Shown here piece by piece: positions 15,982-40,693 of a stretch of DNA of 40,693 nucleotides (the first letter of the stretch is position 1; every line of letters starts with the position of its first letter). Position numbers and translations under genes: made by a program. This DNA is from Alphaproteobacteria bacterium (lineage in GTDB: Bacteria; Pseudomonadota; Alphaproteobacteria; UBA8366; GCA-2717185), in the NCBI GenBank assembly GCA_040905865.1, contig JBBDQU010000029.1, positions 1 to 40,693 on the forward strand, written 5' to 3'. Under the pieces are notes generated by a model. That model was not told where the DNA came from and ran no database searches. It saw only the letters and a list, made by a program, of their open reading frames with translations.

Positions 15982-16314
15982 ATGACCGACGCTGCGGAAA
16001 TGGAAATCACGGTGCAGGCATTCGACGCGCTGCGCCGCGACGGCGCCGCCATGACAATTCTGGATGTGCGCAATCCGCCGGAAATCGCCGTCTGCGCCTT
16101 CGACGGCAGCACGAATATTCCGATGCATGACATTCCCGCGAACCTGGCCAGCCTGCCGGATGACGGCAGGCTCGTCGTCGTCTGCCATCACGGTTCCAGG
16201 AGCCTGCAGGTTACGGCGTGGCTGCGCCGGAACGGCCTGACCAACGCGGTCAGCCTGCGCGGCGGCGTCGATGCCTGGTCGAGGGAAATCGACCCTTCCA
16301 TGCCGCGGTACTGA
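15982..16314 (+). CDS. single-domain rhodanese-like sulfurtransferase
   Basis: A 110-residue protein consisting of one rhodanese domain. The active-site loop is VCHHGSRS with cysteine 68, matching the CxxGxR pattern of GlpE/PspE-like enzymes that carry a persulfide. I chose ATG 15982 because AGGAG lies six bases upstream; a GTG at 15910 would add residues unlike the family. There is no signal peptide, so it is cytoplasmic. It is convergent with the small-RNA gene whose terminator starts about 30 nt beyond its stop. Confidence 0.9.
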   Translation: MTDAAEMEITVQAFDALRRDGAAMTILDVRNPPEIAVCAFDGSTNIPMHDIPANLASLPDDGRLVVVCHHGSRSLQVTAWLRRNGLTNAVSLRGGVDAWSREIDPSMPRY

Positions 16315-16341
16315 CATCGCAACAAAAATGGATACCACGGT

Positions 16342-16374
16342 AAAAAAAAGCCGGTAGGACAAAGTCCTACCGGC
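16342..16374 (-). terminator. intrinsic terminator of RNA copy 1
   Basis: A perfect 11-bp stem GCCGGTAGGAC/GTCCTACCGGC with a 3-nt loop, followed on the minus strand by eight T. It may also halt the convergent rhodanese transcript, although that side has no T-run after the stem. Confidence 0.92.
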
Positions 16375-16565
16375 AGTTTGAACAGGGAGGCTTCACGTCT
16401 GGAAGACGAAGAGTCTTACAACTCTAACTCCCGGGTATTCGCCCGGAAGTCGAAGCATGTGTTACTGCGATACAGTAACGAAGTAGTTGTTAGATACGGT
16501 GCTCAGGCGGATACTGCCAACGTCATTTCATCAAATCTGCCATGCAGTGAGTGCATGCCTGAAAT
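16342..16565 (-). ncRNA. structured small RNA, tandem copy 1 (novel family candidate)
   Basis: Read on the minus strand, this stretch of about 220 nt is a chain of hairpins: ATGCA/TGCAT (16542-16556), GTTACTG/CAGTAAC (16461-16479), a 9-bp stem (16427-16450), GAGT/ACTC (16411-16424), CGTCT/AGACG (16396-16408), then an intrinsic terminator. A single-stranded CCTCCC (16385-16390) lies just before the terminator, like anti-Shine-Dalgarno segments of alphaproteobacterial regulatory RNAs. Its 3' 75 nt (16343-16417) match copy 2 exactly. Upstream stems differ by compensatory changes, for example an A-T pair here replaced by G-C in the second copy's GTTGCTG/CAGCAAC stem. No convincing ORF is present. 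The 5' end is estimated from where similarity stops. I do not recognise a described family. Confidence 0.75.
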
Positions 16566-16630
16566 TTCCGGGTAATGTTTCCGGCTTTTACGATACTTCG
16601 AATCCTATATTTCGCCCTAGCAAATCGTGA

Positions 16631-16746
16631 TTAATCGGAATCACCCGGGTGATTCCGATTAACACGTGAATCTGCTTTTAAAGTGATAGGGCAGATTCAC
16701 GCCTTTTATCTGACGCAATTATTGCGTCAGATATCAGATAAAAGGC
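16631..16746. repeat. composite of three adjacent palindromes between the RNA copies
   Basis: Three inverted repeats lie almost end to end. The first is a perfect 32-bp palindrome at 16631-16662 centred on CCCGGG. The second has 10-bp arms GTGAATCTGC (16666-16675) and GCAGATTCAC (16691-16700). The third, 16701-16746, has outer arms GCCTTTTATCTGA/TCAGATAAAAGGC and inner arms TGACGCAAT/ATTGCGTCA. The third recurs at 40657-40693. This looks like an interspersed palindromic (REP- or MITE-like) element. No coding capacity is seen. Confidence 0.8.
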
Positions 16747-16817
16747 GATCTGCTCTAATGGCGGGACATGTTCGAATGGAACCTGTTGCCGTTCCAATCA
16801 AGCCTCATGTGTCAAAG

Positions 16818-16849
16818 AAAAAAAGCCGGTAGGACAAAGTCCTACCGGC
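16818..16849 (-). terminator. intrinsic terminator of RNA copy 2
   Basis: The same perfect 11-bp stem GCCGGTAGGAC/GTCCTACCGGC with a 3-nt loop, followed on the minus strand by seven T. It would also end LysR transcripts. Confidence 0.92.
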
Positions 16850-17036
16850 AGTTTGAACAGGGAGGCTTCACGTCTGGAAGACGAAGAGTCTTGCAACTCT
16901 AAATCCCAGGCTTGCACCTGAAAGTCGAAGCATGTGTTGCTGCAGTGCAGCAACGAAGTGATTTAAAGGTATGGCCCCCGCGCGAATTCCGGTAACGGAG
17001 ATTTCTCAATCCTGCCATGCACCGGTTGCATGCCTG
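16818..17036 (-). ncRNA. structured small RNA, tandem copy 2 (novel family candidate)
   Basis: Second copy of the tandem RNA, with the same order of stems: CATGCA/TGCATG (17016-17032), GTTGCTG/CAGCAAC (16936-16954), the variable stem 16902-16925, GAGT/ACTC, CGTCT/AGACG, CCTCCC (16860-16865) and terminator. The 75 nt at 16818-16892 are identical to 16343-16417. The segment between the first two stems (about 16955-17010) is not conserved between copies. It begins only about 30 nt after the LysR stop codon on the same strand, so it may be made from the LysR 3' untranslated region or from its own promoter; none is clear. The variable stem retains pairing by a G-C to A-T swap and G-U pairs, with one mismatch. 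Confidence 0.75.
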
Positions 17037-17063
17037 TAACGCAGTGTCTCAAGCGAATGCCTA

Positions 17064-17957
17064 CTACTTTGATTCTTCTACTTTTTTTAGAAGAAAATCA
17101 CGGAAGATGCCGATCCGCTTGGAGTGGCGCAGCTCCTCCGGATAGACAAAATAAGCCTGGATCGTCGGACCGTCGATATCCGGCAGCACCTTTACCAGGT
17201 TCACGTCGTCGGGAATCATGTAGTCCGGCAGCCCCGCCAGGCCAAGTCCGCTACGAACCGCGCGGTAAATTCCATAGACATTGTTCACCCGCAGGGCGGG
17301 ACGCCGCGCGACCCCTTCCAGCGTGCCGAGGTCAAGCAGCCAGTTTGTTGTCGGCGTCGGCGGCGGCAGGTCGTCCCCGTATACGATAAGCCTGTGATCG
17401 TTGAGGTCTTCGGGCGTTTTCGGCGTCCCGTGGAGATCCAGGTATTCCGGCGAGCCGTAGATATGCATGGTCAGCGTCAGCAACTGGCGCTGGATCAGGT
17501 CGGCCTGTCGCGGCGGCGTCAGGCGGATACCGATATCCGCCTTGCGCATGGAAACATCCAGTTCCGTATCGGTCAGGATCAGGCTGAAATCGATTTCGGG
17601 GTACAGTTCTATGAATTCCTTGATCCGGGGCGTCAGCCAGGTCGACCCGAACGAAACCGTCGTCGTCACCTTCAGCGGTCCCGACGGCCGCTCGCGCGTT
17701 TCGCTCAGCTCCGCTTCGACAAGCATAAGTTCGTTGAACACGTTCTTGACCGTCGAATACAGCATTTCGCCCTGCTCGGTCAGTATCAGCCCCCGCGCAT
17801 GCCGGTGAAACAGCATGACGTTGAGGCTTTCCTCAAGCGAACTGATCTGCCGACTGACGGCGGACTGGCTGAGATTCAGGGTTGCTCCGGCGTGCGTAAA
17901 GCTGCCCGCCTCCGCGACATCATGAAAGATGCGCAGCCTGTCCCAGTCCGTCTTCAT
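17064..17957 (-). CDS. LysR-family transcriptional regulator
   Basis: A 297-residue LysR-type regulator. The N-terminal winged helix-turn-helix is at about residues 5-65 (FHDVAEAGSFTHAGATLNLSQSAVSRQISSLEE), followed by a periplasmic-binding-protein-like effector domain. A GAGGA site precedes the ATG. A 7-bp inverted repeat with an 11-nt spacer (T-N11-A type) overlaps its own -10 box, consistent with autoregulation. The usual divergent target gene is absent: upstream is the 3' end of the ELM1-family gene, and downstream on the same strand are the two small RNAs. Its effector is unknown. Confidence 0.92.
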   Translation of the reverse strand: MKTDWDRLRIFHDVAEAGSFTHAGATLNLSQSAVSRQISSLEESLNVMLFHRHARGLILTEQGEMLYSTVKNVFNELMLVEAELSETRERPSGPLKVTTTVSFGSTWLTPRIKEFIELYPEIDFSLILTDTELDVSMRKADIGIRLTPPRQADLIQRQLLTLTMHIYGSPEYLDLHGTPKTPEDLNDHRLIVYGDDLPPPTPTTNWLLDLGTLEGVARRPALRVNNVYGIYRAVRSGLGLAGLPDYMIPDDVNLVKVLPDIDGPTIQAYFVYPEELRHSKRIGIFRDFLLKKVEESK

Positions 17958-39810: not shown

Positions 39811-40656
39811 GTGTGGGAGACGGGCTTGCAGGCAGTCGACGACGTACCGATCTGGCATCTGGCGGTGCTCGCGCTGGTTCAGGGGGTGACCGAATTCCTT
39901 CCGATCAGCTCCTCTGCGCATTTGATCCTCGTCCCCTACATGACCGGATGGACGGATCAGGGCCTTGCCATCGATGTGGCGATGCATATCGGCACCTTGC
40001 TCGCCGTCCTTGTGTATTTCCGCCGTGATGTCGCCCGTCTGGCAGTGGGCACGCTCAACTTCCGCAGCGGATCAGAAGATGCCCGTCTCGCCGGCCAGCT
40101 CGTGCTGGCCACGCTGCCCGTGGTGGCGGCCGGCTACGTGCTATACGACCAGATCGCCACGCAGTGGCGCAGCGTACCGCTTATCGTGCTGACCACTGCC
40201 GCTTTCGGGCTGCTCCTGTGGGCCGCGGACCGGCGCGCACAGAGCAATGCCGGCGGGCTACCAGGGCTGGGCTGGGGGCAGGCGGCTGTCATCGGGCTCG
40301 CGCAGGCTCTCGCCCTCGTGCCGGGGGTGAGCCGCTCGGGCATCACCATGACCGCCGGGCTCTTTGCCGGGCTCTCGCGCACCGAGGCCGCGCGCTTCTC
40401 ACTGCTTCTATCGATTCCGACAACGGCTGCTGCGGGCTTGCTGGCAACCGTTGAATTGGTCCGCTCGCACGATGCGGCGATGCAGGCCAACGCGCTGTTT
40501 GCCGGAGCACTCGCCTTTGCCAGCGCATTGGCGGCGGTCACCCTGCTGATGCGCTGGCTGCGGCGCGCGACATTTACGCCCTTCGTCATCTACCGGCTGG
40601 CGTTGGCCGCGCTGTTGGCGGGCATGTTGCTTCTGGGGTTCTTGCCATCCGGCTAG
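39811..40656 (+). CDS. uppP: undecaprenyl-diphosphatase
   Basis: A 281-residue integral membrane phosphatase of the BacA/UppP family. Both signature regions are present: VQGVTEFLPISSSAHL near residues 27-42 and PGVSRSGITMTAGL near residue 170. It dephosphorylates undecaprenyl diphosphate to recycle the lipid carrier for cell-wall synthesis and gives bacitracin resistance. The start is GTG 39811, two bases after corA; no better in-frame start is seen. The enzyme is metal-dependent, so pairing with a magnesium channel is sensible. The palindromic repeat begins directly at its stop codon. Confidence 0.94.
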   Translation: MWETGLQAVDDVPIWHLAVLALVQGVTEFLPISSSAHLILVPYMTGWTDQGLAIDVAMHIGTLLAVLVYFRRDVARLAVGTLNFRSGSEDARLAGQLVLATLPVVAAGYVLYDQIATQWRSVPLIVLTTAAFGLLLWAADRRAQSNAGGLPGLGWGQAAVIGLAQALALVPGVSRSGITMTAGLFAGLSRTEAARFSLLLSIPTTAAAGLLATVELVRSHDAAMQANALFAGALAFASALAAVTLLMRWLRRATFTPFVIYRLALAALLAGMLLLGFLPSG

Positions 40657-40693
40657 GGCAGATCGCCTTTTATCTGACGCAATAATTGCGTCA
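40657..40693. repeat. partial second copy of the interspersed palindrome, cut by the window end
   Basis: From 40665 to the end, 28 of 29 bases match 16701-16729 (GCCTTTTATCTGACGCAAT, one centre base changed, then ATTGCGTCA). The preceding GCAGATC matches the outer arm of the internal copy read in reverse. The other half lies beyond the window. Confidence 0.85.

Follow-up and report, generated by a model that had tools for sequence, protein, structure and literature searches.

In Sinorhizobium meliloti, the LysR-type regulator LsrB is described as binding to and driving PabcR1, the promoter of the small RNA (sRNA) gene abcR1, and the anti-Shine-Dalgarno (anti-SD) motifs of AbcR are described as repressing transporter mRNAs (PMC8844928). 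In Agrobacterium tumefaciens, vtlR is reported to lie directly upstream of abcR1 and abcR2, and the gene order trxB-vtlR is stated to be well conserved in the class (PMC7486931). Another alphaproteobacterial sRNA, SorX of Rhodobacter sphaeroides, is reported to be cut by RNase E from the 3' untranslated region (UTR) of the RSP_0847 mRNA (PMC6238624). The DNA analyzed here, 40,693 nt of contig JBBDQU010000029.1 (assembly GCA_040905865.1; Alphaproteobacteria bacterium, UBA8366; GCA-2717185) and hereafter called the window, holds two tandem copies, A and B, of a predicted sRNA gene, both on the minus strand downstream of a gene for a LysR-type regulator. We consider it probable that these are LsrB/VtlR-activated, trans-acting anti-SD sRNAs that limit the expression of uptake and catabolism genes.

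Results

Two predicted RNA genes, each preceded by a candidate operator

The pair forms a direct repeat on the minus strand, in which two units of 222 nt, 80% identical, follow each other at a start-to-start distance of 475 nt. The last 75 nt are identical between the copies (minus strand 16892 to 16818 in copy A and 16417 to 16343 in copy B), and both copies end in the same 11-bp stem followed by a T-run, placed by a terminator scan at 16825 to 16849 and 16350 to 16374. In these respects, the tandem arrangement, the shared 3' segment, and the identical terminators, the original prediction made from the letters alone was borne out.

Ahead of each copy stands a palindrome, ATGC-N7-GCAT, which reads ATGCAACCGGTGCAT for copy A (17017 to 17031, minus strand; right half beginning GCATGGCAGGATT) and ATGCACTCACTGCAT, with GCATGGCAGATTT, for copy B (16542 to 16556, minus strand), and this box is conserved in relatives. 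Downstream of it lie promoter-like hexamers on the same strand. For copy A, read by eye from relatives, they are TTACCG as -35 (16995 to 16990) and TACCTT as -10 (16971 to 16966); for copy B, from comparison with relatives, TTGGCA (16520 to 16515) and TATCTA (16496 to 16491), each pair with an 18-nt spacer. Among the 72 copies of the RNA with at least 200 nt of upstream sequence, the window's two included, the box precedes 55, compared to a mean of 0.4 and a maximum of 3 in mononucleotide shuffles, which keep base composition only; its median distance to the core ACGTGAAGCCTCCCTG is 144 nt. The binding consensus given for LsrB is GCAT-N3-TG-N3-T, located at -61 to -49 of PabcR1 (PMC8844928). 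Its exact form, GCATGGCTGAATT, occurs in five relatives from the family of the source organism, and both window copies carry GCATGGCAG, one base off.

The palindrome is thus presented here as a candidate LysR-type DNA operator site. An RNA stem at this place was considered and rejected, since the palindrome sits upstream of the -35/-10-like pair and is conserved as an operator. The first stem of the original prediction, for which no letters were given and which we take from its end coordinate to be GCATGCA...TGCATGGC (17033 to 17014), would therefore be operator DNA rather than RNA, and the segment said to diverge freely behind it would be mostly promoter. With an operator ahead of a promoter, the predicted unit of about 220 nt comprises promoter plus RNA, and the likely transcript measures approximately 142 nt, from an inferred start: 16818 to 16959 for copy A and 16343 to 16484 for copy B, both on the minus strand.

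RNA fold, exposed seed, and covariation

Both 142-nt RNAs are predicted to fold alike, into a 5' hairpin (SL1), a four-way junction closed by GCUUC/GAAGC and bearing three hairpins, an open CUCCCUGUUCAAACU, and the terminator, with energies of -57.8 and -62.0 kcal/mol for copies A and B; the corresponding z scores are -5.77 and -7.89, and no shuffle was as low. Within the open segment lies the anti-SD seed CCTCCCTGTT, at 16856 to 16865 in copy A and 16381 to 16390 in copy B (minus strand). Its portion CUCCCUGUU is single stranded in both predicted transcripts, with unpaired probabilities of 0.87 to 1.0, and the first C of CCUCCC is paired; except for that base, the single-stranded CCTCCC described earlier was recovered.

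SL1 reads GTTGCTG-CACTG-CAGCAAC in copy A (16936 to 16954, minus strand) and GTTACTG-TATCG-CAGTAAC in copy B (16461 to 16479, minus strand), according to fold prediction and alignment. Here the two copies differ by a compensated change, as they do where CAGG/CCTG is replaced by CGGG/CCCG, and both of these previously claimed covarying stems were verified. In an 11-sequence alignment of the family, compensated changes affect 9 of the 27 predicted pairs. The hairpin SLa (AGAGTT-GCAA-GACTCT; 16885 to 16900 in copy A, minus strand) has both partners changed at 4 of its 6 pairs over 26 distinct rows, most of them from more distant loci. These rows are gapless: a filter that demanded at least 5 pairs in a fixed register let through 30 of 70 copies, and 27 of these were aligned, three near-duplicates having been dropped. 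Cells changed on both sides number 16, compared to 3.6 in shuffles; the pair count is weaker, as the 4 changed pairs compare with a shuffle mean of 2.4 and were reached by 23 of 500 shuffles. When the arms were slid out of register, pairing fell from 97.4% to 17.6 to 52.2%. The safer covariation result is the unfiltered control, in which all 70 copies contribute 46 distinct combinations of arms; these form 3.89 of 6 pairs, against 3.28 with swapped arms, a value attained in 0 of 10,000 permutations that ignore relatedness.

An RNAalifold consensus of the widest alignment retained only the hairpin SLb, predicted at 16871 to 16883 of copy A (CGTCT-TCC-AGACG, minus strand), so that R1, the search model used below, contains 5 pairs and otherwise comes close to a pure sequence model. 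The SLb loop region is CUUCCA in the window and CUCCCA in 56 of 70 compared copies; the loop proper, TCC in copy A, is CCC in 54 of the 70. The last letters of SLb formed part of the search pattern, and because the rows of the widest alignment and the 70 copies were picked by patterns containing CCTCCCTG, invariance of those letters there proves nothing. The unbiased figure comes from 80 loci picked by their LysR gene alone, 54 of which contain the exact 16-mer ACGTGAAGCCTCCCTG.

A coding function for the repeat was rejected, as reading frames differ across 11 family copies and no open reading frame (ORF) is kept. A 21-amino-acid frame is common only within the window's genus. With SLa covarying in 26 distinct relatives and no frame conserved, the earlier view that selection acts on RNA structure and not on protein is supported. 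The notion of a dual-copy RNA with a shared seed and variable 5' domains stands in part: the RNAs are duplicated and their anti-SD seeds identical, but the 5' variability falls largely in promoter DNA, and the fold of the 5' portion that is transcribed is retained.

The LysR-type gene and its linkage to the RNA

The upstream gene (17064 to 17957, minus strand) encodes a LysR-type protein of 297 amino acids with Pfam HTH_1 and LysR_substrate domains. This protein is 49% identical over 293 amino acids, without a gap, to the LysR protein of genome G378, the sole genome of 389 with matches to ar15, the Rfam model of AbcR, in which trxB, the LysR gene, and two tandem ar15 RNAs stand together. By similarity and neighborhood rather than by a tree, we infer that the window protein is an LsrB/VtlR orthologue. 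At an E value of ≤1e-60, the LysR profile hits 114 genomes, 111 of them just once. We also compared named loci, the best 80 of 579 LysR relatives from public genomes (isolates and metagenome-assembled genomes [MAGs], with taxonomy as labelled). A TrxB active-site motif, sought as a motif rather than with a profile, is encoded upstream of the LysR gene in 68 of these 80; in the window an ELM1-like gene, not trxB, occupies that position.

Cysteine is absent from the window protein and from 55 of the 80 named relatives. In A. tumefaciens, C273 is reported as required for normal peroxide resistance (PMC11975290). We took the third cysteine of the G378 protein as its presumed counterpart; the residue at that position is valine in the window and in 70 of the 80 relatives and cysteine in none, and the counterpart of C144 is cysteine in 8 of the 80. 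A thiol switch in the window regulator is thus unlikely, and without any cysteine it is probably not subject to the thiol-redox signal of rhizobia.

Within the window's family, the RNA occurs in 9 of 10 other genomes (10 of 11 with its own), and the genome without it is 64% complete. Of the 9 other carriers, 8 show the same LysR gene beside the RNA; at L018, the remaining one, the contig starts too close to the locus for this to be judged. Two copies were seen in this family only in the window's genus, namely, in its own genome and in G009, where the second copy runs off the contig. Among the 80 named loci, R1 finds the RNA in 65, of which 34 trained the model. Labelled carriers include Azospirillum, Thalassospira, Kiloniella, Magnetovibrio, Reyranella, and Falsiroseomonas, and in Azospirillum brasilense (L056) an lsrB-like gene is accompanied by this RNA. 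Five loci from Thalassospira, Magnetovibrio, Sneathiella, and a MAG (L024, L026, L050, L064, and L086) have two or three matches each, so duplication seems to have happened repeatedly. As for the 15 named loci without an R1 match, some end too soon, and others, L028 and L037 among them, lack it throughout the 2.5 kb examined.

R1, although trained on LysR-adjacent sequences, was run over 191 whole alphaproteobacterial genomes drawn evenly from the class. At an E value of ≤0.001, R1 gave 86 matches in 78 genomes, and the LysR profile at ≤1e-60 matched 114. Both were found in 74 genomes, the RNA alone in 4, LysR alone in 40, and neither in 73 (Fisher P = 1.9e-18, relatedness ignored). In 60 of the 74 genomes with both, the two share a strand and an R1 match begins no more than 1 kb past the point where the LysR match ends. 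Sixty-one of these distances are 113 to 448 nt, that of window copy B is 618 nt, and the median is 184 nt. The four genomes with the RNA and no LysR match at this threshold are G089, G059, G179, and G036, three of them of 1.2 to 2.0 Mb. In two other loci whose genomes have no R1 match (L124 and L137), the region downstream of the LysR gene contains several CCTCC motifs; these regions are possibly further forms of the RNA.

Relation to AbcR, SorX, and other known RNAs

At the Rfam cut-offs, the window gives two tRNAs and nothing else, hence no sRNA. Sixteen relative loci scanned at gathering scores also have no Rfam sRNA match, and in a like scan of 20 loci the sole sRNA match is SorX in L136. 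A lax search of the window (E value of ≤10) returned 14 matches, all below cut-off, the best being BTnc005 on the other strand (25.2 bits), Spot 42 (24.7), suhB/mmgR (22.8 and 21.8), and SorX (18.0 twice). Identity of the window copies with a known Rfam sRNA was therefore rejected, none scoring above cut-off. The statement that no named family is recognizable holds in this sense and needs qualification in another, since scores and positions both tie the family to SorX and its locus is that of AbcR; the proposed kinship with alphaproteobacterial anti-SD sRNAs is supported. In the open-licence literature, searched by title and abstract, we found no report of this RNA or of a link between AbcR and SorX/SorY.

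The alternative that fares best is that these are genuine AbcR (ar15) genes, sharing both ancestry and function with those of rhizobia. The locus is the same, provided that the LysR gene is an lsrB/vtlR orthologue, for then the window RNAs lie directly downstream of it as AbcR1 and AbcR2 do. The operator layout, the tandem copies (found for AbcR in several rhizobia), the terminator of its own, and a single-stranded C-rich anti-SD motif are likewise shared; the second such motif, which AbcR carries in a hairpin loop, may have its counterpart in the SLb loop, CUUCCA in the window; the AbcR1 promoter has the LsrB box, and an AbcR gene of G378 is preceded by an operator-type box, TATGCG-N5-CGCATA, overlapping GCATAACTGGCAT. 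The anatomy differs, however: the window RNA has an additional 5' hairpin and a junction, and its single-stranded seed directly precedes the terminator. In addition, both window copies have the box, whereas AbcR2 of S. meliloti is described as depending on RpoH1 (PMC8844928). The ar15 model (RF02345; cut-off, 40 bits) has no match at an E value of ≤10 in positions 16200 to 17200 and none in the window's genome, and R1 in turn misses the AbcR genes of G378 at ≤0.01. Absence of ar15 matches elsewhere says little, because the model matched so few genomes, 0 of 191 and 1 of 389 (G378), and no control genome. Identity with AbcR in the strict sense is accordingly doubtful; that AbcR works alike and is a relative of this RNA is likely but unproven.

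SorX (RF02784) gives 18.0 bits on each window copy, compared to its cut-off of 46.6, and resembles them in having a ACCUCCCUGUU seed ahead of the terminator and a hairpin before the seed. It reaches 52.3 bits, above cut-off, in L136, on an RNA that directly follows the LysR gene and that R1 finds only at an E value of 0.0046. The LysR-linked RNA of L123 scores 62.1 bits with SorY of Rhodobacter (RF02651) and 41.5 with SorX, both below cut-off; SorY gives 52.8 bits in L136, and its cut-off of 111 was not reached in the 10 loci scanned. SorY shares a CAUACCUCCCUGUUGGACUU seed region with the window RNAs and is not among the window matches at ≤10. A SorX match in L021 has an E value of 5e-5. Over the 191 genomes at ≤0.01, the SorX model matches 75, exceeding its cut-off in 2 and finding nothing in the window's genome. 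Across the class, this model detects lsrB-linked RNAs at mostly subthreshold scores.

Could the shared CCUCCCUGUU and terminator be convergent, with SorX, AbcR, and this RNA being unrelated anti-SD RNAs? Both models weigh seed and terminator heavily, and the suhB/mmgR model (RF00519), with its hairpin, CUCCCU, and terminator, also scores weakly on the window copies, below its cut-off of 41 bits. Moreover, of 14 control genomes, 3 have subthreshold matches to the SorX model at ≤0.01, including two from outside the alphaproteobacteria, so its weak matches are not trustworthy. Against convergence, 38 of the 47 SorX matches at ≤1e-5 fall on R1 places; the remaining 9 come from G031 and G156, in both of which SorX exceeds its cut-off, or lie next to the R1 match of G169. 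At ≤1e-4, 46 of 61 SorX matches overlap R1; the converse is weaker, SorX matches covering 46 of the 86 R1 matches. Furthermore, a SorX/SorY-like RNA stands directly downstream of the LysR gene in L123 and L136. Convergence therefore appears improbable. As the SorX model marks the same places as R1 class-wide, SorX looks like one branch, and this RNA another, of a single family, with the reservation that both models lean on seed and terminator.

A further alternative is that the RNAs are processed from the 3' end of the lysR transcript, without promoters of their own. SorX, whose model matches this family, is such a 3' UTR product in the account cited above, and no terminator-like site was detected between the LysR stop codon and copy A. 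On the other side, operator box and promoter-like hexamers stand ahead of both copies, copy B lies behind the terminator of copy A, and in Thalassospira (L024 and L026) the copies are approximately 0.6 to 1.0 kb from the LysR gene with the box kept in three of four, which makes processing quite improbable. A cis element, i.e., a stability or feedback element of the lysR 3' end or a protein-binding sponge without trans targets, fits the location downstream of lysR and is very improbable, given the duplication with its own operator, the strongly conserved exposed seed, and the description of known lsrB-linked AbcR RNAs as acting in trans (PMC8844928).

Candidate targets

Shine-Dalgarno patterns were counted before ATG in the window's genome. 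AGGGAGG-N4-11-ATG occurs 69 times, a few nested matches included, compared to 16 times for the reversed pattern, and AAGGAGG-N4-11-ATG occurs 54 times compared to 31; AGGGAGG is thus over-represented before ATG, and more so than AAGGAGG. From the first 30 loci per pattern, 20 and 21 ORFs of at least 100 amino acids were obtained, respectively, and 20 of each were scanned. The AGGGAGG set has Pfam matches in 19 of 20, mostly to catabolic enzymes and parts of tripartite ATP-independent periplasmic (TRAP) transporters: five short-chain dehydrogenases, TRAP DctM and DctP, PhyH, TauD, a Rieske oxygenase, an enoyl-CoA hydratase, a thiolase, an amidohydrolase, a dienelactone hydrolase, a galactarate/altronate dehydratase, a cupin, a [2Fe-2S] protein, an Aconitase_C protein, and a riboflavin kinase/FAD synthetase. 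The AAGGAGG set, which served as the control, is mixed: Hsp20, NADH dehydrogenase chain 3, CoA ligase, RNase J, and a histidine kinase are among its members, and 8 of the 20 lack a Pfam match. These sets may fit, weakly, a repression of peripheral catabolism and uptake, the pairing itself being only predicted.

Other repeats at the locus

Between the two sRNA copies lies a palindromic dispersed repeat (16619 to 16757; also 40654 to 40693), which matches approximately 20 more places in the genome, whole or by one half, and is possibly a miniature inverted-repeat transposable element or a repetitive extragenic palindrome-like element. A second short repeat (16766 to 16811) is found directly past the terminator of copy A, with matches of 80 to 89% at approximately 15 other genome places.

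Discussion

Anatomy and conservation of the RNA, its linkage to the LysR gene, the conservation of the operator, and the kinship with SorX were computed here, and together with them we put forward a mechanism in which transcription, activation, action in trans, and targets are predicted. The LsrB/VtlR-type protein made from the upstream gene would bind the ATGC-N7-GCAT box before each copy and activate both genes, yielding two sibling trans-acting RNAs of approximately 142 nt. Each would expose CUCCCUGUU between the four-way junction and the terminator, and this segment would pair with Shine-Dalgarno sites of the AGGGAGG type, and so repress a group of genes for uptake and catabolism at the level of translation.

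Several observations weigh against this proposal. The window box departs from the published LsrB consensus by its one base, and the exact consensus is present in just 19 of the 72 copies (shuffles: mean, 1.5; maximum, 7). A sigma-70 consensus scan of the window gave no promoter for either copy, so the -35- and -10-like hexamers were inferred from conservation. SLb and the junction-closing helix hardly vary, leaving them with prediction and no covariation. Linkage is incomplete as well: in 14 of the 74 genomes with both, the RNA is more than 1 kb away or on another contig, 4 of the 78 RNA genomes have no LysR match at ≤1e-60, and 40 of the 114 LysR genomes have no R1 match, although the strict filters may lose weak matches. 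As for targets, AGGGAGG may just be the favored Shine-Dalgarno sequence of metabolic operons; with 20 ORFs drawn from 69 sites and 20 from 54, the sets are small, several starts in the AAGGAGG control set appear spurious, and the sorting is subjective.

A broader reading, for and against which we see the case as evenly balanced, is that the LsrB gene with an LsrB-controlled anti-SD sRNA downstream of it is an ancestral alphaproteobacterial unit, of which SorX, SorY, AbcR, and the RNA described here would be lineage-specific forms, repeatedly tandem-duplicated or moved, and that thiol-redox sensing by LsrB would be a later rhizobial addition. AbcR and SorX/SorY have so far been studied as separate, lineage-specific regulators of stress or transport. 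If one origin beside LsrB is true, they would instead belong to a class-wide posttranscriptional hub, in which the conserved part would be the sRNA circuit and not the thiol-redox sensing, for which most of these regulators do not have the cysteines.
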